Shown here: piece by piece, positions 476-18,660 of the stretch
How the letters are laid out: every line of letters begins with the position of its first letter
Position numbering within the stretch: the first letter of the stretch is position 1
NCBI RefSeq assembly: GCF_025854335.1
Contig: NZ_CP107716.1
Span: 985,001 to 1,049,000, forward strand
Length of the DNA: 64,000 nt
Direction: 5' to 3'
Source of the DNA: Pelagibacterium flavum
GTDB taxonomy: Bacteria > Pseudomonadota > Alphaproteobacteria > Rhizobiales > Devosiaceae
Position numbers and translations under genes: made by a program
Notes under the pieces: model-generated
Told to the model about the DNA's origin: nothing
The model's database searches: none
The model's input: only the letters and a program-made list of their open reading frames with translations

Positions 476-481
476 GGCCGA

Positions 482-3510: not shown

Positions 3511-3548
3511 CCCTGATGCCTTAGTGGCTGTGAGGGGAGGAGATTTCC

Positions 3549-4055: not shown

Positions 4056-5353
4056 TTTTTCTCGACCCCTTCTTTCTGTGCATCGTTTCGATCCTGGCGC
4101 TTGCCATTCTCGGTTTGCCAATCGGCCTATCGATGATCGCCGGCTCGATCCTCTATTTGTTCATGTCAGGACTCGACATGGGCATAGCGGCCGAACAATT
4201 CCTCAACCGGATGTATTCCAACTACATCATCCTTGCGGTTCCCCTGTTTATTCTTGCTGCCGAGTTCATGAACACCGGGTCGTTGTCCGACAGGCTTTTG
4301 GCATGGTGCAACGCGGTCGTCGGTCGTTTCCGGGGCGGGCTGGCCCAGGTGAACGTGCTGCAATCAATGGTATTTGCCGGCATGTCCGGCTCGGCCATTG
4401 CCGACGCCGCCGGCACGGGCAAGATGATCTATTCGCTCATGACCCGCGATGGCAAATACCCCGCCTCGTTTGCCGCGGCACTCACCGCCTCTTCTGCCGT
4501 GATTGGGCCGATCATTCCCCCCTCGATCCCCATGGTCCTTTACGCGCTCGTTTCTGACGCCTCGATCGGGTACCTTTTTTTGGGCGGCATCGTCCCCGGC
4601 GCCATCATGGGCGTTTCGTTGGCAATCATTGTCTATTTCAAGGCCCGCACCAACGACTTTCCGGTCGAAGACCCCGTGCCGCTGCGCGAATTGCCCCGCA
4701 TCACCTGGACCTCGCTTCCCGCTCTGATGATGCCGGTCGTTCTGCTGTTCTGCATTTATAGCGGCATCACAACGCCAACCGAAGCCGCGGCCGTCGCCGC
4801 CGCTTACGCGCTAATCATTTCAATTGTTCTCTATCGTTCGATCAGTCTTAAGAGCTTCTATCGGTCTCTGGTGACTTCGTCGAAAACCACCGTGTCGATC
4901 GGAATGCTGATCGCCGGGGCGCTGGTCCTCAATTACGTGGTTACGGTCGAAAATATTCCCGCCACTCTCAGCGTCATACTGACCGAATGGAACCTCGATC
5001 CGGTCGCCTTTCTGATCTTCGTCAATGTGGTGCTCCTGCTTCTGGGCTGCATGCTTGAGGGAACCGCAATCATCCTCATCATCGTTCCGGTGCTCGTGCC
5101 CTCGGCTGCGGCATTGGGCATCGATCTCGTCCATTTCGGCGTCGTTGTCGTCATCAACGTCATGATTGGCCTGATTACGCCGCCATACGGCATGCTGCTC
5201 TTTGTCATGCAGTCCATCTCGCGGGCCAAGCTGCGCCATATCGTGGGCGACACTCTGCCCTTCCTCGGTGCGCTTCTTGTGGCGCTGATGCTCTTCACCT
5301 TCGTTCCCGATACCGTCCTGTGGCTACCGCGCATGTTCGGGTACCAGGGTTAG
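4052..5353 (+). CDS. dctM: TRAP transporter large membrane subunit (DctM)
   Basis: A 433-residue hydrophobic protein of the DctM/Siap-M family with about 12 membrane segments. Recognisable parts are VPLFILAAEFMNTGSL, the GMSGSAIADAAGTG loop, GPIIPPSIPMVLYAL, and the C-terminal GLITPPYGMLLFVMQSIS. These paired loops bind sodium in this family. It overlaps dctQ by four bases and is followed 18 bases later by aroQ. Together with dctP and dctQ it makes a complete unfused TRAP system. Confidence 0.93.
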   Translation: MIFLDPFFLCIVSILALAILGLPIGLSMIAGSILYLFMSGLDMGIAAEQFLNRMYSNYIILAVPLFILAAEFMNTGSLSDRLLAWCNAVVGRFRGGLAQVNVLQSMVFAGMSGSAIADAAGTGKMIYSLMTRDGKYPASFAAALTASSAVIGPIIPPSIPMVLYALVSDASIGYLFLGGIVPGAIMGVSLAIIVYFKARTNDFPVEDPVPLRELPRITWTSLPALMMPVVLLFCIYSGITTPTEAAAVAAAYALIISIVLYRSISLKSFYRSLVTSSKTTVSIGMLIAGALVLNYVVTVENIPATLSVILTEWNLDPVAFLIFVNVVLLLLGCMLEGTAIILIIVPVLVPSAAALGIDLVHFGVVVVINVMIGLITPPYGMLLFVMQSISRAKLRHIVGDTLPFLGALLVALMLFTFVPDTVLWLPRMFGYQG

Positions 5354-5371
5354 TTTTCGAAAGTTTGCGTA

Positions 5372-5812
5372 ATGACCAAACCCATTTTTGTCCTCAATGG
5401 CCCCAATCTCAACCGGCTGGGCTTGCGTGAACCCGACCTTTACGGTGCAACCACTCTGGCTCAGGTCGAGGCGCTGTGCCACGCAAGCGCCGGCGGGCGG
5501 ACAATAGAGTTCCGGCAAACCAACTCAGAAGAACGTCTGATCGATTGGGTGCATGAAGCAATCGATGCGGCGGCGGGCATCATCATCAATCCGGCGGCCT
5601 TCACCTTCACCTCTCTGGCCCTGTTTGATGCGCTAAAGATGTTCCCCGGACCGATCTTTGAATTCCACATCACCAATGTGCACCGGCGCGAGGCCGTATA
5701 TCACCATTCCTACGTGTCCAAAGTGGCCACGGCCGTCATGGCAGGCATGGGTGCTGATGGCTATGGGATTGCCGTTCAGGCAATGTGCGCCCGCAAGGAT
5801 TTGCTGGACTGA
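5372..5812 (+). CDS. aroQ: Type II 3-dehydroquinate dehydratase
   Basis: It converts 3-dehydroquinate to 3-dehydroshikimate in the cytoplasm. The 146-residue length is standard for the type II dodecameric enzyme. The motifs FVLNGPNLNRLGLREPDLYG (start, with the flexible lid Arg and catalytic Tyr), GIIINPAAFTFTSLAL, EFHITNVHRREAVYHHSY and the final GYGIAVQAM are all present. Placement inside a transporter operon, not with chorismate genes, suggests use in quinate breakdown, where this step precedes protocatechuate formation. The following dehydratase (QuiC/AsbF type) is not in the window. Confidence 0.93.
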   Translation: MTKPIFVLNGPNLNRLGLREPDLYGATTLAQVEALCHASAGGRTIEFRQTNSEERLIDWVHEAIDAAAGIIINPAAFTFTSLALFDALKMFPGPIFEFHITNVHRREAVYHHSYVSKVATAVMAGMGADGYGIAVQAMCARKDLLD

Positions 5813-5814
5813 CC

Positions 5815-6231
5815 ATGGAAAAGCGTACCCTCACATTCGCGCAGGCCGAAGAGATCGCCAGGACGGCAATGGACGGCGCGCGGCAAGAGGGGTTCGACCT
5901 TGCCGTCGCCGTCGTCGATGATGGCGGCTGGCCCCAAATTCAAACGCGCATGGACGATGCGTTTCCCGCAGCGGTCGATGCGGCGCTGGCCAAGGCCCGC
6001 AGCGCAGCCCTGTTTCGCAGGCCCACCTCGGACTTTTCCAGGCGGGTCAAGGAGGGCATGCCTCTGGCCCATCTTCCCCATGTGACACCACTTGGCGGCG
6101 GTGTTCTGCTTGAGCGTGACGGCGTCTTCTTCGGCGCTCTGGGGCTGAGCGGTGCCCGTGAGGATACCGAGACGGCGCTGGCCGAACGCATCGCGGCCGA
6201 ATTCGCGGCGGGCCGCATGGTCCTGGCATAG
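5815..6231 (+). CDS. HbpS/GlcG-family heme-binding-like protein
   Basis: A 138-residue protein with the family fold signature LTFAQAEEIARTAMDGARQ near the start, VAVVDDGGWPQIQTRMDDAF, then a glycine-rich LGGGVLLERDGVFFGALGLSG. The ATG at 5815 sits two bases after the aroQ stop, so the two are coupled. Members of this family occur widely as small accessory proteins in catabolic operons; some bind heme, many have no known function. It lacks a signal peptide, so it is cytoplasmic here. Its role in the quinate/shikimate module is unknown. Confidence 0.8.
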   Translation: MEKRTLTFAQAEEIARTAMDGARQEGFDLAVAVVDDGGWPQIQTRMDDAFPAAVDAALAKARSAALFRRPTSDFSRRVKEGMPLAHLPHVTPLGGGVLLERDGVFFGALGLSGAREDTETALAERIAAEFAAGRMVLA

Positions 6232-6367
6232 GGGAAAGCCCGCCGGCGGCTCCCAGCTCAAGGCCTCTGAGCCCGGCAACCGACAAATGAACACGATTTC
6301 AGCCGGACGCACCCTTGCGTTCGGACGCTAGGCGTTTGTCCTTTTACCCTCGAAATCAAAAAACAAC

Positions 6368-6390
6368 ATATGAAACAGAAAGTCTCATAT
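6368..6390. promoter_or_regulatory. Inverted repeat, candidate regulator operator upstream of the PQQ locus
   Basis: ATATGAAAC (6368-6376) and GTCTCATAT (6382-6390) form an inverted repeat with eight of nine positions matching across a five-base spacer. The half-site, as GTTTCATAT, recurs at 2288-2296 between the GntR gene and the TRAP promoter. Both sites sit in promoter-like AT-rich patches. A common regulator, possibly the GntR protein at 1520-2209, is a guess. The rest of the gap 6232-6521 holds no gene I can support. Confidence 0.35.
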
Positions 6391-6521
6391 TAAATCTTGC
6401 ATGACGGATTTTAACATGCAATCAATCGGCGGGCTGGAGATCAGATTGCTCAGCCGGTGCAGCTGCTGGCCGTCACCAGCGGCACTGCGGCTCGACCGAA
6501 GATTTTGGAGGAGATTTAAAA

Positions 6522-7415
6522 ATGACCAAGCTATTCGCGCGCCTCGCCGGCGCGGCCACCGTGATGACCGCCCTCACTACGATGCCCGCTCTGGCGCAAC
6601 AGCCCGAGCAATACACGACGTTTGAAAAATACGGCTTTTGCGGCAGCATTGACGATAGCTGCTACAACTCATGGTACGATCGTACATCGGGCGAAGAAGA
6701 GCCCTGGAAGGTCTTTATCTACTCTCACGTCGCCACGGGCGTGAACCCGCATGACAATCGCGATGCGGGCGTTGAGGCGCTCACTGAACTGCTCGAGGGG
6801 CAGGGCTACGAGGTCACCACAAGTCAGGATCCTGCCGACCTCGAAAGCGGATTCGGGCTTCGGCCCTATGATGCCATCGTGTTCTTCAACACCGGCCGCG
6901 ATGCCGTGACCAGCCTGGGCATGATGGCGCTTCGCATTTACGTCGAAGGCGGTGGCGGTTTTGTGGGTATCCACAACGCGTTCGGCACCAATTTCAACTC
7001 GACATGGTTCGAAGGTCTTCTTGGCGCGCAGCTTTATGACCACGGTCCGCGGCAGGCGGGCACTGTCATCGTCGAGAGCGAGAATGACGTCTCGGTGGCG
7101 CATCTGGCCGAGGGTACTCAGTTCAGCGATGAAGAGTTCTATAACCTCAACCCCGACCCGCGTTGGCTGAGCGATGTGCGCATTCTGCTCAGCGTCGACA
7201 ATGCGACGCGCGAGCAGGGACTGGATGGCTATTACGGCAATCCCGGCATGGGCGACACCAACCCCGTGTCCTGGTGCCACTATTACGATGGCGGGCGGGC
7301 ATGGCTCACCACGCTCGGCCACAGTTTTGAAATTCTAGAGGATGAGAACTGGCGCCAGCACGTGCTCGGCGGCATCGACAGCGTGATGGGCAAAGAGCCC
7401 TTCTGTCAGGAGTAA
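6522..7415 (+). CDS. Secreted ThuA-like domain protein
   Basis: A 297-residue protein with a signal peptide ending ALAQQ. The body matches the ThuA/glutamine-amidotransferase-like fold: YDAIVFFNTGRDAVT (strand and turn), IYVEGGGGFVGIHNAFGTNF and the C-terminal GGRAWLTTLGHSFE. A cysteine pair near the mature N-terminus (CGSIDDSC) may form a disulfide. It is the first gene of a run with cytochrome c and PQQ dehydrogenase, so it probably acts in the periplasm with them. ThuA proteins are linked to sugar metabolism, but the enzymatic activity is not defined. A substrate-recognition or sugar-product role is possible; I assign no reaction. Confidence 0.8.
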   Translation: MTKLFARLAGAATVMTALTTMPALAQQPEQYTTFEKYGFCGSIDDSCYNSWYDRTSGEEEPWKVFIYSHVATGVNPHDNRDAGVEALTELLEGQGYEVTTSQDPADLESGFGLRPYDAIVFFNTGRDAVTSLGMMALRIYVEGGGGFVGIHNAFGTNFNSTWFEGLLGAQLYDHGPRQAGTVIVESENDVSVAHLAEGTQFSDEEFYNLNPDPRWLSDVRILLSVDNATREQGLDGYYGNPGMGDTNPVSWCHYYDGGRAWLTTLGHSFEILEDENWRQHVLGGIDSVMGKEPFCQE

Positions 7416-7506
7416 TCCTCCCGGGTGTGTCTGCCGGATGCGTCACTTGGCGGTCCGGCAGCGCATCCGCGCCTCGCTCCCCTGTCTGCATCAACGGAGT
7501 CCTCCC

Positions 7507-7950
7507 GTGCAATTTCTCTTAAAGCATCCGCACATCCCGGTCCTTGGTTGCGCGCTCGCATTTGCTGGCTTGGCCGCACTGCCGGCGATTGCGCAGGACC
7601 ATGCGCTTGAAGGCGGTTCCATTGGCGTCGATCAGGTCGAGCGCGGCCAGCAAGAGTACATGGCGAACTGTTCGATTTGCCATGGCGAGGATCTTCATTC
7701 GGTCCTCTCGACGGCGCCCGATCTTACCGGCTCCGTGTTCAAATATGGCTGGGTCGGGCAAACCGTCGGCGCAAAATACAACGTCATTTCGACAACCATG
7801 CCTGCAGGCATGGGCGGGTCGCTTTCGGATCAGACCTATGTCGACATCGTCGCCTACATTCTGTCCGCCAACGGCGTTCCGGCGACAGAAGATGGCGAAC
7901 TGCCGGTCGATCCCGAAGCCCTTCAGGCCATCACCATAACCGCTCCGTGA
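7507..7950 (+). CDS. Periplasmic class I cytochrome c, partner of the PQQ dehydrogenase
   Basis: A 147-residue protein with a signal sequence ending AIAQD and one heme c motif CSICH at residues 55-59. A distal Met ligand is likely in STTMPAGMGG, about 45 residues later. The GTG at 7507 is chosen because GGAG precedes it at about eight bases and the hydrophobic signal then begins directly; an upstream ATG at 7438 would add an unlikely Arg-rich leader. It sits 60 bases before the PQQ dehydrogenase, the usual place for the soluble electron acceptor (XoxG/ExaB role). It would pass electrons to the terminal oxidase. Confidence 0.88.
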   Translation: MQFLLKHPHIPVLGCALAFAGLAALPAIAQDHALEGGSIGVDQVERGQQEYMANCSICHGEDLHSVLSTAPDLTGSVFKYGWVGQTVGAKYNVISTTMPAGMGGSLSDQTYVDIVAYILSANGVPATEDGELPVDPEALQAITITAP

Positions 7951-8010
7951 CGCTTGCGAGCCCAGCGCCCCGATCCCGACACCACTTCTGAAAATTCTGG
8001 AGGAGATACA

Positions 8011-9705
8011 ATGAAACTGAGATCTATTGTCAGCGTAGCAGCATTGCTTGCCGTACTTGGCGCCTCGGCTCCCGCATGGGCCCAAGACGATGCGTTCACC
8101 CCGGTCACCGATGAGATGCTGAGCGCCCCGGCCGATGGCGACTGGCCACTTTGGCGGCGCGCGCTTGACAGCTGGGGCTATTCCCCGCTCGATGAAATCG
8201 ACCGCGAAAACGTGAGCGATCTGACCCTGGCCTGGGGCTGGTCCATGGAGCCCGGCTGGCAGGAAACGGCGCCGATCGTCTATGACGGCGTTATGTATCT
8301 CGCCAATCCTGATGGCATTGCCCAGGCCCTTGATGCGGTGACCGGCGATCTCTTGTGGGAATACCGGCGCGAAATGCCCGAAGGGTTCCGTCCTGGCATG
8401 ATGAGCCGTGGTTTGGCCATCTATGGTGACAAGGTCTTTTTTGCGACGCCCGATGCGGGACTTGTCGCACTGGACGCGGTCTCGGGTCAGGTCGTCTGGG
8501 AAACCGACGTTGCTGGCGACGGCAAGACCGTAACAGCCGCTCCCGTCGTCGCTGATGGCAAGGTCATCGTCGGTTACATGGGGTGCTTCGGGTTCGTGGC
8601 GGACAAGTGCGGCGTGGCCGCGTTTGACACCGAAACCGGTGACGAAGTCTGGCGCACCATCACCGTTTCCGATGCCCCCGAAGGCGAGGACAGCTGGGGC
8701 GGCATGCCCTACGTCCTGCGCGGCGGTGGTGACATCTGGACGTCGGCATCATACGATCCCGAAGCCGATCTGGTCTATATCGGCTCGTCTCAGGCCAAGC
8801 CCTGGGCCCGCGCCAGCCGCGGTCAGGACGATGCCTCGCTCTACACCAGCTCAACCCTGGCGCTCGACCCCGATACCGGGGAAATCGAGTGGTTCCGCCA
8901 GTACATTCCGGGCGAAACAAACGATATGGACGAGGCCTTCGAGCACATCCTTGTCGATATCGATGGGGAGCCTTCTTACGTCAACATGGGCAAGCTAGCC
9001 ATTCTCTGGCGCGGCAACCGCGAGACGGGCGAGCCCTATCCCGCCTTTGACCTCGGCTGGCAGGACCAGATCGACATCACCGAGGAAGGTACATTTGCCA
9101 ACTATCGCGACGGCAAGATTGCCGAACTGGGTGAGCCCATAACCATGTGCCCGAGCACGACCGGGTTCCGCAGCTGGCGCTCGCTTGCCTATAGCCCGCA
9201 CACCCGCGCCGTCTACATCCCCATGAGCATCAATTGCGACACTGCCATGACCTATGGCGAAGTGGAGATGGTCGAAGGCGGCGGCGGCAATGGACAGGTT
9301 GGCAGCACCCGCGCCATCCACCCCGATAGCCCGGACAATGTCGGTCGCTTCGTTGCCATGAATATCGATACTGGCGAAGTGCTTTGGGAAAACCCCTCGC
9401 GCTCTCCGGCCAATACCGCCATGCTCACGACCGCCGGCGGTCTTGTTTTCGGCGGCGATTGGGATCGCCACATGTACGCATGGGACGAGGAAACCGGCGA
9501 AGTGCTTTGGGAAACCCGCCTGCCGCAGGCCGCACAGGGCTACCCGATCGCTTATGCCGTCGATGGAAAGCAGTATATTGCAGTCCCTGTAGGGGTGGGG
9601 GGGTATTCCTGGTCTTCCAGCGTTCCCAGCCAGTTGACCCCCGAAATCAAGCGTCCCAGTTCGGGCAATGCAGTGCTCGTCTTCGCACTACCCGACCGCG
9701 GCTGA
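8011..9705 (+). CDS. Soluble periplasmic PQQ-dependent alcohol dehydrogenase, probable lanthanide type
   Basis: A 564-residue eight-bladed quinoprotein with a signal peptide ending APAWAQD. Family marks include GYSPLDEIDRENVSDL, repeated blade motifs such as ALDAVTGDLLWEYR and AWDEETGEVLWETR, AKPWARASRG and LALDPDTGEIEWF. Aligned to methanol dehydrogenase, the catalytic Asp is D305 in GETNDMDE, and position +2 is D307. An Asp there marks lanthanide-using enzymes, whereas calcium MxaF has Ala. Two usual features are not seen: the vicinal Cys-Cys, and the Glu metal ligand in the GxxGxE segment, which instead has C192 and C200 (MGCFG, DKCG). Start at 8011 follows GGAGGAGA. Related Devosia enzymes (DepA type) oxidise deoxynivalenol; the substrate here is unknown. 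Confidence 0.88.
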   Translation: MKLRSIVSVAALLAVLGASAPAWAQDDAFTPVTDEMLSAPADGDWPLWRRALDSWGYSPLDEIDRENVSDLTLAWGWSMEPGWQETAPIVYDGVMYLANPDGIAQALDAVTGDLLWEYRREMPEGFRPGMMSRGLAIYGDKVFFATPDAGLVALDAVSGQVVWETDVAGDGKTVTAAPVVADGKVIVGYMGCFGFVADKCGVAAFDTETGDEVWRTITVSDAPEGEDSWGGMPYVLRGGGDIWTSASYDPEADLVYIGSSQAKPWARASRGQDDASLYTSSTLALDPDTGEIEWFRQYIPGETNDMDEAFEHILVDIDGEPSYVNMGKLAILWRGNRETGEPYPAFDLGWQDQIDITEEGTFANYRDGKIAELGEPITMCPSTTGFRSWRSLAYSPHTRAVYIPMSINCDTAMTYGEVEMVEGGGGNGQVGSTRAIHPDSPDNVGRFVAMNIDTGEVLWENPSRSPANTAMLTTAGGLVFGGDWDRHMYAWDEETGEVLWETRLPQAAQGYPIAYAVDGKQYIAVPVGVGGYSWSSSVPSQLTPEIKRPSSGNAVLVFALPDRG

Positions 9706-9723
9706 CGGCCAGGATTAGCGTGC

Positions 9724-9749
9724 AATGGGCCGGCTCACGCCGGCCCATT
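9724..9749 (+). terminator. Hairpin after the PQQ dehydrogenase gene
   Basis: AATGGGCCGGC (9724-9734) and GCCGGCCCATT (9739-9749) form a perfect 11-base-pair stem with the loop TCAC. Only a weak T-run follows, so it may be a partial terminator or an mRNA-stabilising hairpin that raises dehydrogenase levels above those of the downstream genes. Confidence 0.65.
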
Positions 9750-9791
9750 TGCCTGTTTGAAGGCGAAACCTGGAAAGAATTCGAGGATCAT

Positions 9792-10592
9792 ATGGGTCTT
9801 GGCTTGTTGAAACAGATCATCTGCTCCATGAGCCTGCTGGTTGCCGCGCTTCCAGCCGCTCCGGCTGCGTTGGCCCAGCCCTTCGTGCCTGTAGAATCTT
9901 ATAATCGCACCCGCCCCGACTTCGGAAACCGGCTGCCGCTGTGTGTGATTGCCAATAGCCCCACGCTCGGCCGGGACCGTGAGGTTGCCGCCGAGTTGGC
10001 TCATGTCCTGCTGCTCGAGCCCGAAATCGTCGAAATGGATGTCGATGTCGATCTCCTCGACAGTGAAGGCCTCTGGCCCTCAATTCTCCTCCACCTCGCA
10101 GAAAAGTGCGTCGGTATCATGGGCGTCCAGATCATTCCCGGCGAAATTGCGCCCGACTGGATGATCCTGTCGCGGCCCTATTTCGAGGCGCCCTATGTCC
10201 TGCTGACGCGCGACGACGAGATCGAAAATCTTGCCGATTTGCCGGCCGAAACCCGCGTGGGCGTCCCACTTTATACCCCAATCGATATCGAAATGATGAC
10301 TGTGATCGCAGCCGGCGGCCAGCTAGGGGAACTGCGACGGCTCCCCTATGACCGGCCCGAACTCATGGCATCACTGATGCGTAGTGGCGAGATGGACGCT
10401 GCCATCGTCTGGGAGCCTCATCTTGAACTGCCGACTGTCCAGCCGCTCGATTTCTTCGTGGGTCGGGCCAGCATTGCGCCGCTGCGGCAGGATAGGCGTG
10501 CCGTCGCCGTGCTCCTGCGCAGCCAGGACCGGATGCTTCGAACCATGATTGACGATGCCATTGCAGCCCTGTCCATGGAGATCGGGCCATGA
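9792..10592 (+). CDS. Periplasmic family-3 binding-like protein (MoxJ/XoxJ type)
   Basis: A 266-residue protein with a signal peptide ending AALAQP. Its fold is that of amino-acid-type binding proteins: LPLCVIANSPTLGRD opens lobe 1, then SRPYFEAPYVLLTRDDEIENLADLP, TRVGVPLYTP and GEMDAAIVWEPHLE. Proteins of this type accompany quinoprotein and cytochrome genes (MxaJ, XoxJ) and are thought to help mature the dehydrogenase, not to feed a transporter. Position right after cytochrome c and PQQ dehydrogenase supports that. GAGG precedes the ATG at 9792. A second, diverged family-3 protein closes the cluster at 16038. Confidence 0.82.
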   Translation: MGLGLLKQIICSMSLLVAALPAAPAALAQPFVPVESYNRTRPDFGNRLPLCVIANSPTLGRDREVAAELAHVLLLEPEIVEMDVDVDLLDSEGLWPSILLHLAEKCVGIMGVQIIPGEIAPDWMILSRPYFEAPYVLLTRDDEIENLADLPAETRVGVPLYTPIDIEMMTVIAAGGQLGELRRLPYDRPELMASLMRSGEMDAAIVWEPHLELPTVQPLDFFVGRASIAPLRQDRRAVAVLLRSQDRMLRTMIDDAIAALSMEIGP

Positions 10593-10681
10593 GCAATTAT
10601 GGATTGTCTTCAGATGGTTGGCCGTCCTTCTTGACGCGTCAGATTCTGGTGATTGCTGAAACAGAGTCGACGCGAGCATGA
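10589..10681 (+). CDS. Short open reading frame coupled to the XoxJ-like gene
   Basis: A 30-codon frame beginning MSNYGLSSDGWPSF starts at an ATG overlapping the previous stop by four bases (ATGA). It is not PqqA, as it lacks the Glu-x-x-x-Tyr core. It may be a chance frame or the stump of a lost gene. The stretch 10682-10781 that follows holds nothing recognised. Confidence 0.25.
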   Translation: MSNYGLSSDGWPSFLTRQILVIAETESTRA

Positions 10682-10781
10682 CAGATCGAACGTTCGCATT
10701 TGATGGCCGGGCGAAAACTGGCGGTTCCAGATCGATCCATGCTGCCGGTATCGGACGGGCGGCGAGCCGAGAGGGTCCATC

Positions 10782-11390
10782 ATGTTGGATTTGAGTTTTC
10801 TGCAAATCCTTTCGCGCCTCATTGCAATTATCATCGTATTGGCGGTGATGGGCTTTAGCCTGGCTGGATTTGCGCGGCTCTTGGGCGACAAGGGCATGAT
10901 CCACGACGGCAAGCTTTCGCTTAACCCGCTAACCCATATAGACATCTTTGCTCTGGTGGCCGGCGTTGCCGGGCGCATAGGCTGGCTTCGCCCCGTAAAC
11001 ATCGATCCGTTGGAATGTCGTGGTCACCGCGTGGCTCCGGTGCTGGCCGCGATTGGCGCTATGACCGCGCTCTTTTTTCTCGGTCGCGTTGCCGGCGTTC
11101 TTCAGCCGTGGGTCGCCACATCGTGGCCCACCAGCAGTGCGAGCTTTGCAACTGCTACTCTGCGAGCTATTGGCGATACGGCTGGATGGACGCTTGCCGC
11201 CAACGCCATTCCCGTCCCGCCGCTTCTCGGCGGCTATCTTGTTCAGGCTATTGCCCCGGCTACCCACGACTGGCTGGTTAAGCGACATTCCTTTGTTTCA
11301 TTCGCCCTCTCAGCGCTGGTCATTTTCAGTTACGGGAGTCTGTCTAACACGCCGTTTGGCGGATGGGCCAGTACATTGGGACGAGGTTGA
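10782..11390 (+). CDS. Membrane protein of the site-2 protease (M50) family lacking catalytic residues
   Basis: A 202-residue hydrophobic protein. It retains the framework of small M50 proteases: ARLLGD, GKLSLNPLTHID (residues 43-54), PVNIDP and the C-terminal NAIPVPPLLGG (141-151). The zinc motif HExxH expected about eleven residues before LGD reads MGFSL, and the third zinc ligand Asp in the NxxPxPPLDG motif is Leu149. It is therefore predicted to be an inactive homologue, perhaps a membrane scaffold or chaperone. GAGAGGG precedes the ATG. It lies between the XoxJ-like gene and the ABC exporter ATPase on the same strand. The 160 bases after it (11391-11550) show no gene. Confidence 0.7.
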   Translation: MLDLSFLQILSRLIAIIIVLAVMGFSLAGFARLLGDKGMIHDGKLSLNPLTHIDIFALVAGVAGRIGWLRPVNIDPLECRGHRVAPVLAAIGAMTALFFLGRVAGVLQPWVATSWPTSSASFATATLRAIGDTAGWTLAANAIPVPPLLGGYLVQAIAPATHDWLVKRHSFVSFALSALVIFSYGSLSNTPFGGWASTLGRG

Positions 11391-11550
11391 TCCTGGTGTT
11401 GCAAGCGTTCGCCGCCTTTGCCTCTGTCCTTGTCCGGCCGCATTGCGCCTTGCAAGCGTTCGGCGTCATTACACGTGGCGGCTCGGCGTCGTTGGGCCTA
11501 TCGGCTTTTGAGGGGTTTGGAACCTGTAGCTCTGCCGAGGGAGTGATCTT

Positions 11551-12516
11551 ATGAGCCGGACTGCCGGCACGCCCGCGATTTTGGTTGAAAGCGTATCCAA
11601 GCGCTTTGGTCGTGTTCTGGCGCTTGATGATGTGTCTTTGTCGGTGCGGCAGGGCGAGACATTTGCCTTGCTTGGCCCCAATGGTGCGGGAAAGTCGAGC
11701 CTGATCGATATTTTGTGCACGATCAGCAGGCCCGATGGCGGACGGGCCGAGATAACCGGTATCGATGTCGTCAGGCACCCCTTGCAGGCCCGCAAGCGGT
11801 TGGGTGTTGTGTTCCAGGAGGCAACGCTGGATACGCGCCTTTCGGTTTATGAGAACCTTAATTTCCACGGCATGGTCTATCAGATGAACCGGGCTGACCG
11901 GCGCCGGCGCATCGATGAGATGCTTGCGCTGGTTGAACTTTCCGACTGGCGCGATGCGGTGGTGAGAACCCTCTCTTCGGGTATGCGGCGACGCCTCGAG
12001 ATCGCACGCGGCCTGATGCACGAGCCCAGAATATTGTTTCTCGATGAGCCCACCATCGGTCTCGACACACAGTCGCGTGCCAAGATCTGGTCCTATCTCG
12101 AACAGCTGCGGGCCAGCCAGAATCTCTCCATCATCGTGACAACCCACTATATCGAGGAGGTCGATACCTGCGATACGATCTGCATCATCGATCATGGCAG
12201 GATTTTGGTGACCGGCACGCCGGAAACGCTCAAGGCAGCGCATGGCACGAGCCTGTTTCGCGTGACGCCCCGCACGCCTGACGCCCATGCAGCTCTTGTC
12301 GCGCGATATCCCGGCACCGTGGAAGGGGCCGAAGGTCAGTTGCTGATCAGGGCAGAAGACGCCGGCAGCGCCGATGCTCTGCTGGCCGAATTCGGAACCC
12401 GATTGCGCCAGGTCTCGGTCGATCAGCCGAGCCTTGAAAGCGTGTTCCTGTCACTCACCGGTCGCGACCTGCGCGAGGCGCCGCCTGCCGTCGGCAAGAC
12501 GCGGGGGCACCCATGA
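11551..12516 (+). CDS. ABC-2 exporter ATPase, PQQ-alcohol-dehydrogenase-associated type (PedA-like)
   Basis: A 321-residue ATPase with Walker A GPNGAGKSS, the Q-loop VVFQEATLD, signature LSSGMRRR and Walker B ILFLDEPT followed by the H-loop TTHY. A C-terminal extension of about 70 residues follows, as in drug/lipid-type exporters. ATPases of this type recur beside PQQ alcohol dehydrogenase genes, with an ABC-2 permease as partner. Here the permease is five genes away at 15226. The stop overlaps the next start by four bases, so this gene is translationally joined to the SsuC-like permease of a different transporter. Confidence 0.88.
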   Translation: MSRTAGTPAILVESVSKRFGRVLALDDVSLSVRQGETFALLGPNGAGKSSLIDILCTISRPDGGRAEITGIDVVRHPLQARKRLGVVFQEATLDTRLSVYENLNFHGMVYQMNRADRRRRIDEMLALVELSDWRDAVVRTLSSGMRRRLEIARGLMHEPRILFLDEPTIGLDTQSRAKIWSYLEQLRASQNLSIIVTTHYIEEVDTCDTICIIDHGRILVTGTPETLKAAHGTSLFRVTPRTPDAHAALVARYPGTVEGAEGQLLIRAEDAGSADALLAEFGTRLRQVSVDQPSLESVFLSLTGRDLREAPPAVGKTRGHP

Positions 12517-13307
12517 GCCAGCCCCCGCCCAAAGACATGGCCATTCAACCGGGCGAAGACCCGGGCCCATGGCTGGTTGCGGCAACCCGGATCGGGTTTC
12601 TCGCCATGCTGATCGTTCTGTGGTGGATCGCGTCGGTCAATGTGGCGCGCAACATCATCCCCTCGCCCTGGGCAACGCTGCAGGCGGCAGGCGGGCTGCT
12701 GCAGGAGGGGCGCCTGCAGACCGCTTTTGTCGATTCCCTGTCGGTCTATCTTTCGGGCTATGGCCTTGCGATCCTGTGTGCCATCCCGCTCGGGGTCGCC
12801 ATGGGCGCGTTCAACCTGCTTGGCCGGACGCTCGAGATCTATGTCTATGCGCTTTCGGCCACCCCCCGCGTCGCGTTCATTCCCCTTATCATCGTACTGC
12901 TCGGACTGGGCTCGGAAGCCAAGGTGTTCATCGTCTTTCTTGGCGCCGTAATGCCCATTCTGATCAACACCTATGCCGGCGTGCGCCAGTCCGATCCCGA
13001 GCTTGTCGAAATGGCCCGCTCGGTCGGCGCTGGGCGACTTCGGATCTTTACCCGTATCGTGCTACCCGGCGCCGTGCCTTATGTCATTGTCGGCCTGCGC
13101 CTTGGCGCTACGATCGGTCTCATCAATACCGTGGTCGCCGAGCTTTATACCGCCGTGCGTGGTCTGGGCGGGCTTCTGGCCATCTATGGCAACACGTTCA
13201 GGATGGCGGAGTACTTCGTCATCGTCCTTTCGCTCGCAGCCATCGGGGTCGTCGTGACCGAGGGGCTGCGTTTCGTCGAACTGCGCCTTGCCAGATGGCG
13301 GCGCTAA
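12513..13307 (+). CDS. ABC importer permease, SsuC/TauC/NrtB type
   Basis: A 264-residue inner-membrane protein with six predicted helices and the family EAA loop (EMARSVGAGRLRIFTRIVLPGAVPYV). It matches permeases for sulfonates, taurine, nitrate or pyrimidine precursors. It overlaps the preceding exporter ATPase by four bases and is followed 20 bases later by its binding protein and then by its own ATPase at 14359. The substrate cannot be deduced; the setting suggests an alcohol-related compound or a cofactor for the PQQ system. Confidence 0.88.
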   Translation: MSQPPPKDMAIQPGEDPGPWLVAATRIGFLAMLIVLWWIASVNVARNIIPSPWATLQAAGGLLQEGRLQTAFVDSLSVYLSGYGLAILCAIPLGVAMGAFNLLGRTLEIYVYALSATPRVAFIPLIIVLLGLGSEAKVFIVFLGAVMPILINTYAGVRQSDPELVEMARSVGAGRLRIFTRIVLPGAVPYVIVGLRLGATIGLINTVVAELYTAVRGLGGLLAIYGNTFRMAEYFVIVLSLAAIGVVVTEGLRFVELRLARWRR

Positions 13308-13327
13308 ACATCCAAGGGAGAGAGTAA

Positions 13328-14362
13328 ATGACCACCAAATCAATGATGCTGGCTCTGGCCGGATCGGTCGCGAGCCTGGCCCTGATGACCGGCGCCGGGC
13401 TGGCGCAATCGAGCGAGCCCTTCCGCCTGATCCTGACCCACCTCGAGCCGCCGCTTGTTCCCAATTCCGTAATGGATCTGGCCGCAGAGCTGGGCTATTT
13501 CGAAGCCGAAGGCGTCGATGTCGAACTCGTTCGCGTTCAGCAGACCCCCTCGGCCATCGCCGCGCTGCAATCGGGCGAGGGCGAAATGGCCAATATCGGT
13601 GTCGATGCGCTTTTGCAGGTGATCCACAATGGCGCTACCGATTTCCGCGCGGTGACCTCGCCCAACAAATCGTTGCCGTTCCTCATCGCCTCCAAGGACG
13701 ATATCGCAACGCCTGCCGATCTTGCCGGCCGCAGCTTTGGTGTTGGACGGGTGGGAAGTCTCGACCACTCGCTTTCGACATTGGTGCTGTCGAGCCAGGG
13801 CGTTTCAATCGATGATTCCGAAATCGTCTCGCTCGGCCAGCCCGATATCCGCGCCCAGGCGCTCCTGGCCGGGCAGGTCGATGCCACGACCATGTCGATC
13901 GGCGTGTGGAGCGAACTGCCCGACACTCAGGGTCTGCATGTTCTGATCGATCAGGACGCCTATTATGAGGGCGCGCCTGTGATCAACAAGGTCAATGCCG
14001 TCACCGGCGAGGTTCTGACCGAGCGGCGCGAGGACGTTGAAGCTGTGATCCGGGCTCTGACCAGGCTCTCGCGCGACTTCGCAGAAAACCCCCAGATGTG
14101 GGTCGACGCGATGATGGAGGTTCGCCCCGACGTCAGCCCCGAAGTGCTCGAGATGCTTGCGCAGTCCTTTGTTGGCAGCTGGAGCGTCAATGGCGGCATG
14201 AGCGTTGAGGAACTGAGCTTTACCAGCGACTGGCTGTATGAGACCGAAGACTTCACCGATTTCGAGCCTCTGGCGCTCGAAGACTGGGTCGATTTCGGGC
14301 CTGTTGATGCCGTTCTGGCCGAATTGGGCACTGACGATACCATGGACCCCGCCGATCGATGA
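13328..14362 (+). CDS. ABC importer substrate-binding protein, SsuA/NMT1 type
   Basis: A 344-residue protein with a signal peptide ending AGLAQS. The pattern DLAAELGYFEAEGVDVELVR with GEGEMANIGVDALLQ is typical of NMT1/SsuA binding proteins. It is very acidic, particularly in the C-terminal 60 residues. GGGAGAG precedes the ATG. It shares an operon with the 12513 permease and overlaps the 14359 ATPase gene by four bases. No residues specific for sulfonate or nitrate binding are recognisable. Confidence 0.88.
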   Translation: MTTKSMMLALAGSVASLALMTGAGLAQSSEPFRLILTHLEPPLVPNSVMDLAAELGYFEAEGVDVELVRVQQTPSAIAALQSGEGEMANIGVDALLQVIHNGATDFRAVTSPNKSLPFLIASKDDIATPADLAGRSFGVGRVGSLDHSLSTLVLSSQGVSIDDSEIVSLGQPDIRAQALLAGQVDATTMSIGVWSELPDTQGLHVLIDQDAYYEGAPVINKVNAVTGEVLTERREDVEAVIRALTRLSRDFAENPQMWVDAMMEVRPDVSPEVLEMLAQSFVGSWSVNGGMSVEELSFTSDWLYETEDFTDFEPLALEDWVDFGPVDAVLAELGTDDTMDPADR

Positions 14363-15216
14363 GCGTCGTCCATTTCCCGGGAGGTGACCGCGTGGCACCA
14401 AAGCCGCAGGCGTCAAAGACCCTGCTCACATTCGCAGATGTCCACAAACGCTTCGTCCAGCCGGACGGGTCGGTCAACACGGCGATCGATGGCGTTTCGC
14501 TCGACATCGCCGAACGCGAATTTGTTGCCCTGATCGGCCCCTCGGGATGCGGAAAGACCACAATCCTGCGGCTGGCCAACGGCCTGATCGTTCCCGATGC
14601 CGGATCGATCCGGATCGATGGTCGGCCGCCCGAACCTGGACCCGATATGGGCTTTGTCTTTCAGGCCTTCCGCCTGATCCCATGGGCCAATGCGCAGGCC
14701 AATATCGAATTCGCTTTGGAAAGCCTCGACCTCTCCAGGGCCGAGCGCGCCGAACGGGCCCGGCATTATCTCGATCTCGTCGGGTTGTCGCGCTCGGCCA
14801 AGGCCTATCCGGCCCAGCTTTCGGGCGGCATGAAGCAGCGCGTGGCCCTGGCGCGCGCGCTGGCGGGAGAACCGCGCGTGCTCCTGATGGACGAACCCTT
14901 CGCAAGCCTCGACGCGCAAACGCGCGAACTGATGCAGGGCGAATTGCTCTCCATCTGGCGGCGGCTCACCCCCACCGTCGTTTTTGTCACCCACAGCGTC
15001 GATGAGGCGCTCGTGCTGGCCGATACCATCGTGGTGATGGGCGCCGGAACGGTGCTCGAAACCATCAGGGTCGATCTGCCGCGACCACGGCTCACCGTCG
15101 AAATGCGCGCTGATCCGCGGTTCCTCGAACAGAGGTCCTATTTGTGGAACCGTATCCGCGACCTTGTGCTCACCGACCCCGCCTCTGAATTCTTCGGCCG
15201 TAATCTCAACGAATAG
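14359..15216 (+). CDS. ABC importer ATPase, SsuB/TauB type
   Basis: A 285-residue ATPase with Walker A GPSGCGKTT, Q-loop VFQAFRLIPW, signature LSGGMKQR and Walker B VLLMDEPFASLDAQTR with the H-loop VTHSVDEAL. This is the nitrate/sulfonate/taurine importer class. The start overlaps the binding-protein stop (ATGA). An N-terminal stretch of about 20 residues before the ATPase fold is longer than usual, so a downstream start is possible. It energises the 12513 permease. Confidence 0.9.
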   Translation: MSVVHFPGGDRVAPKPQASKTLLTFADVHKRFVQPDGSVNTAIDGVSLDIAEREFVALIGPSGCGKTTILRLANGLIVPDAGSIRIDGRPPEPGPDMGFVFQAFRLIPWANAQANIEFALESLDLSRAERAERARHYLDLVGLSRSAKAYPAQLSGGMKQRVALARALAGEPRVLLMDEPFASLDAQTRELMQGELLSIWRRLTPTVVFVTHSVDEALVLADTIVVMGAGTVLETIRVDLPRPRLTVEMRADPRFLEQRSYLWNRIRDLVLTDPASEFFGRNLNE

Positions 15217-15225
15217 GAGCTCCCG

Positions 15226-16038
15226 ATGACCGCCATGTGGGGACAATTGGTCGGCGTCTATGCCATCTGGCTGCGCGAGGTCAAACGCTCGCTGCGCGAC
15301 AAGGGACAACTGATCGGCGGCGTCAGTCGGCCCCTGCTGTGGGTGCTGATCCTGGGCATCGGTCTCAACCCCTATTTCCGGGGCGAAGTGTATGGCGAAG
15401 TGCGGTTCGTGGTGCCCTACACCTATCTCCAGTTCATCTTCCCCGCCGTCATCGTCCTCAACATTCTTTACACCTCCATCCAGTCTGCGGTCTCGCTGAT
15501 CTGGGACCGCGAGTTCGGGTTTTTGCGCGAGGTTCTGGTCTCACCCATGTCACGCAACATGATCCTTCTGGGCAAGGTCCTGGGCGGCGCCACGACCGCC
15601 GTCATCCATGGCTGCATGGTGCTGGTCGTCGCGCGCTTCGTCGGCGTCACCCTGACCTGGGAGACGATCTTTGCAGCTATCGGGCTGATGTTCGCCCTGG
15701 CGTTCGGGTTGACCGCCTTCGGCATCGTCATTGCCAATTACGTGCGTGGGTTCGAGAGCTTCGGGGTATTCTCCAATGCCGTGATCCTGCCGCTCTATTT
15801 CACCGCCAGTTCCGTCTTCCCGCTCGATCCGGCACTGACCCGCGCCCAGACGCTGGTGACCTACCCCGAATGGCTGGTCATCATCGTCGAGCACAACCCC
15901 CTGACCTATGCCGTCGATGCGATGCGCGGCATCCTGATCAAGTTCAATCAGTTCGATCCAGCTCTCGGTTTTCAGGTGGTTGGCATCATGGCCGTCGGCC
16001 TGTTCCTTCTGGCCATGTGGGAATTCCGGAAAGTCTGA
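15226..16038 (+). CDS. ABC-2 type exporter permease (PedC-like)
   Basis: A 270-residue permease with six helices and the ABC-2 pattern LREVLVSPMSRNMILLGKVLGG followed by AFGLTAFGIVIAN and LTYAVDAMRGILI. Permeases of this group are coupled to the PQQ-ADH ATPase type found at 11551. AGGAG precedes the ATG. Its TGA stop shares a base with the ATG of the next gene. The exported compound is unknown. Confidence 0.88.
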   Translation: MTAMWGQLVGVYAIWLREVKRSLRDKGQLIGGVSRPLLWVLILGIGLNPYFRGEVYGEVRFVVPYTYLQFIFPAVIVLNILYTSIQSAVSLIWDREFGFLREVLVSPMSRNMILLGKVLGGATTAVIHGCMVLVVARFVGVTLTWETIFAAIGLMFALAFGLTAFGIVIANYVRGFESFGVFSNAVILPLYFTASSVFPLDPALTRAQTLVTYPEWLVIIVEHNPLTYAVDAMRGILIKFNQFDPALGFQVVGIMAVGLFLLAMWEFRKV

Positions 16039-16871
16039 TGTCGGCTCCCGCTCACAAAAGGCCACGCAAGAGCCATTGGCTGTTCGACATGGCCCCTCTG
16101 GCGCTCTGCTTTGCGCTGCTGTTTGCCGTGAGCTTCTTGCCGCCCGACAGCGCGCGCTACGAGGTCGACAGGCTCGGTCGGCTCAATGTGTGCATGCCGC
16201 CCCTCTACCCGCCGCTTGTGACCGGCAAAGCGGACAGGCCCGGCTTTGAGGTCGAATTGCTCCAGGAAATCACCGAACGGCTTGGCTGGCGGCTCAACAT
16301 CGTCTCCAACGCGTCGATGGGGCGCGATTTCAATCCACGCAGCTGGCGCATCACCCGTGCCCAGTGCCAGGTCCTGGCCGGAGGCATCGCGGTCAATTCG
16401 ACGACGCGTTCGTTCCTCGACACCACCGACCCGCATCTCGTGACCGGATGGGCCCTGATCGCACCGCCCGGCACCACCATCGAGACCGTGCAAAGCCCGG
16501 TGGGCTTTCTGGCCGGCCTCACGGGTCTCGACCGGATCGGGCTGGGCCAGTATCTGCGCCAGCGCGCCATCACCGCGACCATCGTCAACGACGCCGCCAC
16601 CCTGCGCGCCCGCCTGGAGGCCGGCGATTACGATGCGGCGATCACCGAAGCCCTGCTGGCCAGCACCACTTTTTCCAACACCAACCTCGCCATCACCGTC
16701 CTCGGTCCACCCCTCGAACGCATTCCGCTGGGCATGGGGTTCTGGAAAGGCGATCTGACGCTCAAGCGCGCTGTGCAATCCACGATCGCCAACATCCGCG
16801 CAGACGGAACATTGGCCGTCATCGCAGCGCGATATAATCTGAAGAGCGAAGCCGTTTCTTCATCCAAGTAA
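16038..16871 (+). CDS. Periplasmic family-3 binding-like protein, second XoxJ-type copy
   Basis: A 277-residue protein with an N-terminal membrane anchor or uncleaved signal (APLALCFALLFAVSFLP). It has the binding-protein pattern LNVCMPPLYPPLV, PGFEVELLQEITERLGWRLN, AGGIAVNSTTRSFLDTTDP and AGDYDAAITEALLAS. It starts one base into the preceding stop codon, so it is coupled to the exporter permease. It is only distantly similar to the 9792 protein. A role in quinoprotein maturation or in substrate capture is possible. Confidence 0.78.
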   Translation: MSAPAHKRPRKSHWLFDMAPLALCFALLFAVSFLPPDSARYEVDRLGRLNVCMPPLYPPLVTGKADRPGFEVELLQEITERLGWRLNIVSNASMGRDFNPRSWRITRAQCQVLAGGIAVNSTTRSFLDTTDPHLVTGWALIAPPGTTIETVQSPVGFLAGLTGLDRIGLGQYLRQRAITATIVNDAATLRARLEAGDYDAAITEALLASTTFSNTNLAITVLGPPLERIPLGMGFWKGDLTLKRAVQSTIANIRADGTLAVIAARYNLKSEAVSSSK

Positions 16872-17170
16872 GGCAGGCACAGGAGCATTCCAGCACCATC
16901 TCCCTCCCTCAGCGGTCTTCAACACCTCTACCATAGCACAGAGATGCCCTCGGGGCGTCCAACCTTGGCTATCTCGGCGTGGATATCGAGGATGCATTGC
17001 TGCTGGCTGAACGGCCCGAAATATGTTCTGGAGCGGTCGTTTGTTCACAACGAATGACTGCTTCGTGCAGCTGACGCTTAGCCCACATCCGCGAAGAGGC
17101 GGGAGGAAGAGGGTCGGTTCTGGTGCCTTGACGCGTTAAGCTGCTATCAGCACCAAACGAGCTCAACTCC
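16872..17170. other. Non-coding gap after the PQQ cluster
   Basis: No gene, repeat or clear terminator is supported here. The last 60 bases presumably carry the promoter of the ureohydrolase gene. Confidence 0.5.
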
Positions 17171-18082
17171 ATGGCACCTTTCAAAACCTTTCTTAATCTA
17201 CCAAACCAACTTCAGGCGCAGGATCACCGTCGCATCGCGGTTTTAGGCGTCGAGCATTGTAGCGCCTATCCTGATCAGAGCAGCAGCGGGCATGCGCTGG
17301 CCGCTGATGCCATCCGAGCTGCCAGCCAAGAAGATGCGGCCCTGGTGGAGCATTGGGATTTCGATCTTGGCGGCCCCTTGTTCGATGACGGCCCCATTGC
17401 CTGTGCAGACTGGGGAAATGTTGAAACGGTGATAGGTGACAGCATCGGAAACCGCGCCCGGATCGAGCAAAAGACCCGAGAGGTTCTCGCCCAATCTGCC
17501 GTCCCGATTCTGATTGGAGGCAATGATTCAGTGCCAATCCCGTTTCTCGCGGCTTTTGCAGACCGGGGGCCGATCTGGATCCTCCAGATCGACGCCCACA
17601 TCGATTGGCGTGATGAACTGCAGGGCGAACGGTACGGCTTTTCCAGCCCGATGCGGCGAGCAAGCGAAATGCCTCATGTTGCCGGCATAGTGCAGGTTGG
17701 CATGAGGAGTGTGGGCAGTGCCACGAAGGCAGAGCTCGACGCGGCAATTTCATATGGCAGCAAGATCGTCACCGCCCGCGAAATCCATAGCCAAGGCGTC
17801 GAGGCCGCACTGCGCCATCTTCCAGACGGGGCTCGGATCGTTATAACTTTAGATTGTGATGGACTCGATCCTTCCATCATGCCCGGTGTAGCCGCACGAA
17901 CGCCCGGCGGACTCAGCTACACCCAAACAATTGATCTGATTGCCGGAGCCACGGCACGAGGACGCATCGTCGGCATGGACCTGGTTGAGTTACTGCCGCC
18001 AGCCGATCTCGATGGGCTGTCGGCTCTCACCGCTTCGCGTATCCTCGTCAACATGATCGGTGCCATCGTCCGGCAGTGCTAG
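17171..18082 (+). CDS. Ureohydrolase (arginase/agmatinase family) with altered metal motif
   Basis: A 303-residue cytoplasmic enzyme that would release urea from a guanidino compound. Manganese-site motifs are GGNDS (116-120), DAHID (141-145) and TLDCDGLDP (227-234). The first normally reads GGDHS, with the His as a metal ligand; here Asp119 replaces it. The segment ARTPGGLSY and the final GMDLVEL are standard. It stands alone between the PQQ cluster and an IS21 element, so context gives no substrate. Confidence 0.82.
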   Translation: MAPFKTFLNLPNQLQAQDHRRIAVLGVEHCSAYPDQSSSGHALAADAIRAASQEDAALVEHWDFDLGGPLFDDGPIACADWGNVETVIGDSIGNRARIEQKTREVLAQSAVPILIGGNDSVPIPFLAAFADRGPIWILQIDAHIDWRDELQGERYGFSSPMRRASEMPHVAGIVQVGMRSVGSATKAELDAAISYGSKIVTAREIHSQGVEAALRHLPDGARIVITLDCDGLDPSIMPGVAARTPGGLSYTQTIDLIAGATARGRIVGMDLVELLPPADLDGLSALTASRILVNMIGAIVRQC

Positions 18083-18262
18083 CCAACTGGCATCTACGGG
18101 GTGGTTGGCGGAGAGGCAGGTTGCCGTGACCAGCTTGCGAAAGCTGCCACGCAGCCGGCGCGCACCCTCTACAAGGCGCAAACTGGCGCTCAAGCTGGAG
18201 CCTGCCCCTGTGCCGGTGGAAGAAGATCCGGCGCGGGGCTTCTGAGTTTGCCAGGCTGAAGA

Positions 18263-18547: not shown

Positions 18548-18575
18548 TGTTGATTTCCGCTGAGAAGTGACCCGG
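18548..18575 (+). repeat. IS21 left terminal inverted repeat
   Basis: Begins TGTTGATTTCCGCTGAGAAG; pairs with 21017-21044 with a single mismatch (C versus T at position 11). Confidence 0.9.
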
Positions 18576-18660
18576 TTCAGGGAGATTTTTCCACTGAGAA
18601 GTGACCCATGTTTGAACGCTATCCTGCTCGTTTTGGGCGGGAGATTTAGGAGTGTTGGAC

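Follow-up and report, generated by a model that had tools for sequence, protein, structure and literature searches.

How metal enters periplasmic quinoproteins is an open question, above all for enzymes of the sorbose type. We take it up at a locus of Pelagibacterium flavum (RefSeq assembly GCF_025854335.1, contig NZ_CP107716.1), in a stretch of 64,000 nucleotides, hereafter the window, that covers positions 985,001–1,049,000 of a one-contig genome of 3.93 Mb. Eleven genes on the same strand (6522–16871, +), defined by open reading frames and Pfam matches, run from a ThuA-like protein to a family-3 binding protein (SBP3) and include a soluble dehydrogenase dependent on pyrroloquinoline quinone (PQQ), here called QDH, a homologue of site-2 proteases (M50ps), an ABC-2 pair of ATP-binding cassette (ABC) genes and an SsuCAB-type importer. 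What do these partners do for the enzyme? The locus is real, conserved and in two parts, one for substrate oxidation and one a partner set made up of M50ps and ABC genes. The set is a regular companion of one kind of PQQ dehydrogenase and probably provides its cofactor. Its genes are concrete candidates for the metal question, among them a family of ‘hypothetical’ proteins in Devosia, Pelagibacterium, Haematobacter and Paracoccus, genera with named strains. Because Devosia enzymes of the broad QDH family oxidise the mycotoxin deoxynivalenol (DON) (PMC8779532, PMC10467086), partners of this sort could be important when such an enzyme has to be produced in active form.

An earlier reading of the sequence alone (the sequence-only reading) had described this eleven-gene locus, and the gene identities it gave hold. 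Its statement that short overlaps join the last six genes needs correction: overlaps of 4, 4 and 1 bases remain among the junctions between 11551 and 16871, and the other two are gaps of 20 and 9 bases.

Distribution of the partner set

Among 101 genomes related to the window genome, 18 encode a QDH of the window clade with a best match of at least 364 bits, the next genome reaching 276 bits. M50ps and the ABC-2 permease (>200 bits) occur in the same 18 genomes; for one of these carriers (G018, 71% complete) both matches are only partial. At E 1e-40 the permease is found in 21 of the 101 genomes, including three (G015, G022 and G035) in which it scores only 144–155 bits and which we take to encode other ABC-2 permeases. 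QDH, M50ps and permease are all absent from 3 of the 12 Pelagibacterium genomes. The sequence-only reading had proposed co-occurrence across genomes as a check, and the outcome divides its list of partners: pseudoprotease, ABC-2 pair and SBP3 keep together as a conserved set, and the ThuA protein and the SsuABC importer are not constant.

Named loci were collected via the ABC-2 permease alone (the best 80 of 131), and counts refer to the 63 loci no shorter than 16 kb; named loci and relatives' genomes overlap (e.g., L128 and L046). The ABC-2 ATPase is present in all 63 and SBP3 in 62, QDH, M50ps and a XoxJ-like gene in 58 each, a cytochrome gene in 53, VWA genes in 14 and MoxR genes in 10. Over-long reading frames were among the sequences behind the SBP3 model, and some permeases were labelled SBP3 as a result; SBP3 counts may be slightly high for this reason, and the permease itself was scored in 52 of the 63 loci although each had been fetched by it. 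By family, the 80 loci are assigned to Devosiaceae (36), Paracoccaceae (18), Beijerinckiaceae (6), Phyllobacteriaceae (5) and others with fewer; one comes from Meiothermus, and six lack a family assignment. Once the loci assigned to Devosiaceae are set aside, QDH and M50ps still occur together in 30 of the remaining 44. We also searched 40 loci drawn from QDH matches (39 in relatives, one in the window genome) with the eleven proteins. With the window included, 26 of 41 contain an M50-like protein, and the ABC-2 ATPase, permease and SBP3 recur together in many orders and strand arrangements.

A class-wide sample of 385 genomes was scored for at most eight M50ps, six permease and three QDH candidates per genome. 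At E 1e-60 the permease is found only in the window genome, although QDH-like hits occur in 76 further genomes. Because 14 such QDH-like loci from 12 genomes (about 13 kb each, one of 3 kb) show no gene of the module besides QDH, the module is, as far as seen, confined to one QDH clade.

Distances were compared across the 56 loci in which all five genes tested are single-copy. Their means are 0.29 for the permease, 0.44 for the ATPase, 0.50 for QDH, 0.64 for the XoxJ-like protein and 0.67 for M50ps. Since the permutation test gave 0 of 500 permutations as high for every pair, only partial correlations are used, and these descriptively: 0.85 for QDH with XoxJ, 0.47 for M50ps with the ABC ATPase and 0.00 for M50ps with QDH. 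By this description there are two sub-modules, QDH with XoxJ and M50ps with the ABC genes. The permease changes least of the five, and its ligand therefore seems to be common to all QDHs of the clade.

A site-2 protease homologue without an active site

M50ps (10782–11390, +) is recognised by profile, motif and fold evidence. Where active relatives carry HExxH, the family alignment places M23-G24-F25-S26-L27 (10848–10862, +). HExxH is missing from all 81 distinct linked members and from all 49 database members, the window's included (E 1.1e-49 or better); 20 of 24 weaker hits have it, and of the four that do not, three are fragments of the linked family. The glutamate position of the motif is glycine in 22 of 22 aligned members, and the aspartate of the LDG motif, the third ligand, is absent from all 71 of the 81 members in which it could be placed (10 were not placed; the window has L149). 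A profile built from 22 members matches proteins in 175 other genomes of the class-wide sample at no more than 85 bits, against 218–235 bits for the window genome's two copies, and the ordinary M50 relatives among these matches have HExxH in 29 of 29 fetched. Judged by these alignments, M50ps has lost the protease active site.

The AlphaFold model (pLDDT 93.4) gives M50ps a predicted site-2 protease (M50) fold: the five top rows of a VIA-align search are all site-2 proteases (Z <13), and the RasP–EcsA model 9a6w is the second fold match. Foldseek alone gave no significant match to the model, and a hit to PF02163 at E 0.05 is seen for only 4 of 22 members. Source names, present for 11 of the 49 close database members, are all ‘hypothetical protein’ (NCBI/JGI), with three also called ‘peptidase M50’ (UniRef). 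The sequence-only reading had suspected an undescribed system, and in the open-licence literature, subscription papers being outside our coverage, we found no description of the pseudoprotease or of the whole gene set. Quinoprotein-linked ABC systems are known as a kind; in the present set M50ps is a new component. If a site-2 protease fold does indeed serve a purpose other than proteolysis here, that would be of interest in itself.

The ABC genes and their second copy

The ABC-2 ATPase (11551–12516, +) is DrrA-like (TIGR01188, 292 bits, cut-off 312; TIGR03864, 238 bits, cut-off 302), and the ABC-2 permease (15226–16038, +; PF01061) is DrrB-like (TIGR01247, 155 bits, under its cut-off; TIGR03861, the PedC model, 111 bits against a cut-off of 241). 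SBP3 (16038–16871, +; PF00497, 44 bits) begins with a hydrophobic segment and is probably membrane-anchored. The sequence-only reading had called the pair an exporter. This is doubtful, because a binding protein accompanies the pair, an arrangement shared with PedA1A2BC and LutABEF, both of them regarded as importers (PMC6839425, PMC7391723); the pair's direction of transport and ligand are matters on which we infer rather than observe.

Between ATPase and permease lie an SsuC-like importer permease (12513–13307, +; PF00528), an SsuA/NMT1-like binding protein (13328–14362, +; PF09084) and an SsuB-like ATPase (14359–15216, +; PF00005; NF040729, 225 bits, and TIGR01184, 220 bits, both under cut-off). 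SsuA, SsuB and SsuC are each present in 26 of the 63 permease-fetched loci; this importer is an optional extra of the module and not the fixed member it had been thought to be.

A tract of 5,255 bases (11563–16817, +) has a second copy in the genome that is 99.98% identical, with one mismatch, at 16815. The copy belongs to a second M50ps–ABC unit at about 1,479,300–1,485,400 (G000:C1; L186, ~1,480 kb), which is inverted and has no QDH nearby; the genome's two QDHs, at 993 and 2,405 kb, are far from it. A single base separates the two ABC parts, yet the neighbouring M50ps genes and the SBP3 C-termini of the units are alike without being identical; this pattern points to gene conversion between older copies as the likely cause.

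The quinoprotein and its XoxJ-like partner

QDH (8011–9705, +) has a signal-like N-terminus and is a soluble sorbose-type PQQ dehydrogenase by Pfam and by its matches to solved chains, the highest-scoring of which are 22vi, 4mh1, 4cvb, 9m2c and 7wmd, the last presumably a Devosia enzyme. It matches the PF01011 beta-propeller at 202 bits and TIGR03075, the methanol/ethanol subfamily, at 366 bits, under the cut-off of 480. Assignment to the ‘acido-empty’ non-PQQ quinoproteins (TIGR04528, 261 bits against a cut-off of 650) was not adopted. We aligned 97 QDHs, which are distinct sequences and not independent events. The catalytic aspartate D305 is kept in 96 of them, and in the window D305-M-D307 (8923–8931, +) joins it to a lanthanide-type aspartate (D-x-D). 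The metal motif is D-x-D in 86, D-x-E in 10 and G-x-D in one. In a 2025 survey D-x-D is taken as the lanthanide signature, and sorbose-type enzymes that have it are predicted to use lanthanides (PMC11996626); the motif thus marks the window QDH as a predicted lanthanide-type enzyme. C192 and C200, near the metal-site loop, are invariant (97/97).

The gene downstream of QDH (9792–10592, +) encodes a XoxJ/MxaJ-like periplasmic protein by weak profile matches (MxaJ 9ism, E 0.011; XoxJ 6onp, E 0.073); its scores of 11.5 and 17.3 bits against NCBIfam TIGR03870 and TIGR03871 miss the cut-offs. Such a gene lies near 96 of the 97 QDHs and in all fetched QDH loci, and a cytochrome gene near 86 of the 97.

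The window genome's only other QDH of this kind (L051; G000:C1:2404564–2406309) is D-x-D and has XoxJ-like and cytochrome genes, with no M50ps or ABC-2 permease within 20 kb. Meiothermus hypogaeus (L168) carries two QDHs, one D-x-E and one G-x-D with the catalytic aspartate lost, beside an ABC-2 set and MoxR; M50ps was not found in its 15.8 kb, and the set is a distant transfer. QDHs of other families (616–755 residues, 546–694 bits on the family model; L192–L199 and L211), three of them D-x-D, have no XoxJ, M50ps or ABC genes nearby.

Cofactors of the enzyme

Half of the 18 carriers, nine genomes with the window's among them, gave no pqqC match (8 of the 16 whose completeness is 90% or more), and a search of the window genome for PqqE yielded nothing above cut-off. 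PQQ biosynthesis or export is accordingly rejected as the module's job there, and export is unlikely in general given the nine carriers without pqqC. The other nine have pqqC and keep the module. An informal look at SsuABC as compensator for absent PQQ synthesis showed no pattern, G001, G007, G008 and G009 having both. Because pqqC is missing from half of the carriers and Devosia strains are known that oxidise DON only with external PQQ (PMC8779532, PMC10467086), PQQ is probably scavenged by these hosts.

The metal motif is linked to a further group of genes. Of the D-x-E QDHs, 10 of 10 have MoxR/VWA genes nearby, against 6 of 86 D-x-D QDHs (Fisher p 7e-10, not to be taken at face value). The D-x-E enzymes form one clade, with one change on the tree, so that the link amounts to one event. 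Three further D-x-E loci (G001, G028 and G032) fit it, their stretches having been picked partly by VWA hits; a fourth, L206, is the same locus as L112, and one MoxR/VWA locus, L208, has no QDH in 20 kb. One locus (L074, in G008) reads cytochrome, QDH, XoxJ-like, M50ps, a 468-residue protein, a 1,407-residue VWA protein (whose BatA and GATase-like parts narrowly miss the Pfam cut-offs), MoxR, DUF58, ABC-2 ATPase, SsuCAB and permease. The four genes that L074 has at this place (468-residue protein, VWA, MoxR and DUF58) are missing from the window, whose interval 11390–11551 holds none of them, and the window genome has no VWA-protein match at E 1e-40. The presence of MoxR/VWA near D-x-E and rarely near D-x-D enzymes resembles the independence of XoxF from the mxaACKLD and mxaRSEH genes (PMC11845868).

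A proposed role and its alternatives

Our best reading is that the M50ps–ABC set is a cofactor-supply or maturation system like PedA1A2BC or LutABEF, lying outside both by the curated models. PedA1A2BC of Pseudomonas putida, which is linked to lanthanides, likewise unites an ABC-2 permease and an ATPase with a periplasmic binding protein, and its genes stand next to those of PQQ alcohol dehydrogenases. Genomes with a QDH also tend to hold either PedC or the module permease: one or the other occurs in 34 of 38 QDH-bearing genomes versus 1 of 63 others (PedC). Unlike that system, the window has a binding protein of family 3 and adds M50ps, its permease and ATPase fall short of the PedC and TIGR03864 cut-offs, and 8 of the 18 carriers are among the 25 of 101 genomes with PedC above cut-off. 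A Pfam scan of the eleven genes saw no PedA2-like beta-propeller; related loci were not searched for PedA2. LutABEF of Methylorubrum extorquens, as described, joins a binding protein, an ATPase and a membrane component for a lanthanide quinoprotein; unlike it, the window's eleven genes include no TonB receptor or lanmodulin. The 2025 survey names TonB receptors and metallophore clusters, with FecCD-type importers in four of the latter, and the term ‘ABC transporter’ is absent from it (PMC11996626).

Other parallels concern single components. In Bacillus subtilis the site-2 protease RasP depends on the ABC transporter EcsAB, and loss of EcsA or RasP gives like phenotypes (PMC7478892). M50ps is similar in tying this fold to an ABC transporter (by fold, as in the 9a6w match) and differs in having lost the active site that RasP retains. 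The mxaRSACKLD genes, for calcium insertion and methanol dehydrogenase maturation, find a counterpart in the MoxR, DUF58 and VWA genes of related loci, chiefly beside D-x-E QDHs; the three are absent from the window locus, no VWA match exists genome-wide, and the VWA protein of L074 has 1,407 residues. With xoxFGJ the locus shares the three-gene logic of dehydrogenase, cytochrome and binding-protein-like partner, but the window QDH is of sorbose type and its partner matches XoxJ only at the E value given above. DepA-type DON dehydrogenases of Devosia share the broad QDH family and, in some hosts, the dependence on neighbours' PQQ; the passages available to us mention no M50ps–ABC genes for them, and the window substrate is probably quinate-like instead.

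In the scheme we propose, the periplasmic substrate of the soluble QDH would be a cyclic polyol, in all likelihood quinate or shikimate, and the electrons from its oxidation would go to cytochrome c, with the XoxJ-like partner helping the enzyme; the product would enter through a tripartite ATP-independent periplasmic (TRAP) transporter and go on to AroQ. M50ps, the ABC-2 ATPase, the permease and the anchored SBP3 may form a single inner-membrane complex, with M50ps, in the role we infer for it, as a non-cleaving membrane subunit and SsuCAB as an optional second importer made together with it. The complex would handle a cofactor common to the QDH clade, most likely the active-site metal and, going by D-x-D, a lanthanide. 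That the set keeps strictly to one enzyme clade, that its permease changes slowly, that it and PedC complement each other across genomes and that a binding protein is present all suggest a shared cofactor rather than a substrate. Metal supply is favoured because lanthanum-dependent growth requires PedA1A2BC and lutA, lutE and lutF mutants keep lanthanum deposits in the periplasm (PMC6839425, PMC12997753, PMC7391723). The second M50ps–ABC unit, which stands without a QDH, and the M50ps distances, which follow the ATPase, also speak for this scheme. Of the two functions the sequence-only reading had guessed, cofactor or metal handling is thus the better, and uptake or processing of an alcohol the poorer. 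Taken whole, this picture of periplasmic oxidation with a dedicated machine to supply the enzyme, metal favoured, is a tentative explanation to which we give somewhat less than an even chance.

Several observations weigh against it. The best NCBIfam subfamily matches of the ABC-2 pair are drrA and drrB, ahead of the Ped and PQQ models, all of these cut-offs being missed. Five Pelagibacterium genomes have relatives of the window QDH without adjoining M50ps–ABC genes. DON dehydrogenases of the broader QDH family have been assayed with calcium, so that D-x-D does not stand in for an assay. The D-x-D QDHs at L194, L195 and L198, in two genomes that belong to a different family, have no module gene in the 13 kb fetched, and the motif alone therefore does not require the module. 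Finally, the ten D-x-E QDHs carry M50ps (9/10) and ABC genes (10/10) as well, which speaks against a role restricted to lanthanides and keeps maturation in play.

An extended form of the proposal, a quinoprotein loading machine, strikes us as rather unlikely: here the ABC-2 transporter would import or present the metal via SBP3, with the dead protease as a standing subunit and MoxR, DUF58 and VWA proteins added by metal type, and the enzyme would be completed with neighbours' PQQ in PQQ-lacking hosts. The set might instead carry no ligand at all and use ATP to help QDH fold, take up its cofactor or leave the membrane, M50ps acting as a membrane chaperone. Such a folding or maturation system would serve calcium- and lanthanide-type enzymes alike, as the shared M50ps–ABC genes need; the single gene run of L074 with MoxR, DUF58 and the VWA gene, the contrast between D-x-E and D-x-D neighbourhoods with its three additional loci, and the mxa-independence of XoxF agree with it. 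We nonetheless regard it as unlikely, given the single origin of D-x-E, the MoxR/VWA locus without a QDH, the window genome's lack of a VWA match and the zero partial correlation between M50ps and QDH.

PQQ itself could be the ligand, captured, moved or loaded after being scavenged from neighbours, either by ABC-2, SBP3 and M50ps or by SsuABC. The nine carriers without pqqC and the Devosia strains that need external PQQ fit this idea, but the nine with pqqC keep the module, export would be senseless where PQQ is not made, and scavenged PQQ would have to cross the outer membrane only, QDH being periplasmic; we think it quite doubtful. Efflux of a toxic product or antibiotic-like compound by a DrrAB-type pair, apart from cofactor supply, has the top subfamily matches on its side and is nevertheless improbable, with a binding protein beside the pair in nearly every permease-fetched locus and a strict co-occurrence with one dehydrogenase clade. 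As for chance or recent juxtaposition behind the window QDH, QDHs 96% identical to it stand without adjoining M50ps–ABC genes in G009 and G011, and recent copying or conversion inside the genome has affected the ABC part. The set turns up beside other QDHs in varied gene orders and strand arrangements, however, and among the 101 relatives no genome has it without such a QDH, which contradicts juxtaposition as a general statement; it may hold for the exact neighbour pair of the window, and as an account of the locus we judge it extremely improbable.

The substrate side

The first part of the locus is probably devoted to periplasmic quinate/shikimate oxidation. Upstream of the eleven genes are a quinate/shikimate dehydrogenase-like gene (586–1509, +; PF08501; NF009201, 381 bits, above cut-off), a DctP–DctQ–DctM TRAP transporter (2416–5353, +; 2416–3462, 3549–4055 and 4052–5353; PF03480, PF04290 and PF06808), the type II 3-dehydroquinate dehydratase AroQ (5372–5812, +; PF01220, 164 bits; NF003806, above cut-off) and an HbpS/GlcG-like protein (5785–6231, +; PF03928, 94 bits). 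These are followed by the ThuA-like protein (6522–7415, +; PF06283), with a signal-like N-terminus, and cytochrome c (7438–7950, +; PF13442/PF00034; CSICH in its sequence), the likely electron acceptor. Just beyond the window edge, a domain scan shows a protein of 630 residues in which a xylose-isomerase-like barrel is fused to an HPPD N-terminal domain; we take it for a QuiC-like dehydroshikimate dehydratase. A quinate/shikimate catabolic block (L212:12795–14687, −, together with window 586–6231) thus stands ahead of the PQQ dehydrogenase.

The order TRAP–AroQ–HbpS–ThuA–cytochrome–QDH–XoxJ is kept in five other Pelagibacterium genomes, within reach of the fetched stretches; in L040 the cytochrome of this block was not found. 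The QuiC-like gene recurs at 91% identity in G009, beyond the same block, and near the QDH of P. xiamenense, where it was seen as two pieces across a fetch boundary. Because this conserved block adjoins QDH, the substrate is most likely quinate, shikimate or a similar polyol, and the upstream TRAP transporter would be the better explanation for uptake of substrate or product. Acinetobacter QuiA, QuiB and QuiC similarly couple PQQ-dependent oxidation of quinate to dehydroquinate and dehydroshikimate dehydratases (PMC4213383); unlike the soluble sorbose-type enzyme with its cytochrome c, QuiA is membrane-bound and donates to ubiquinone. The ThuA protein, which the sequence-only reading had counted into the system, falls on this side: it is found near 7 of the 97 QDHs, which rules it out as a core member, and in 1 of the 63 permease-fetched loci.

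Promoter and terminator scans gave no more hits than shuffled sequences, and Rfam models gave no matches in positions 1–20000 of the window. Downstream of the locus, 18652–20968 encodes an IS21-type transposase with its helper ATPase.

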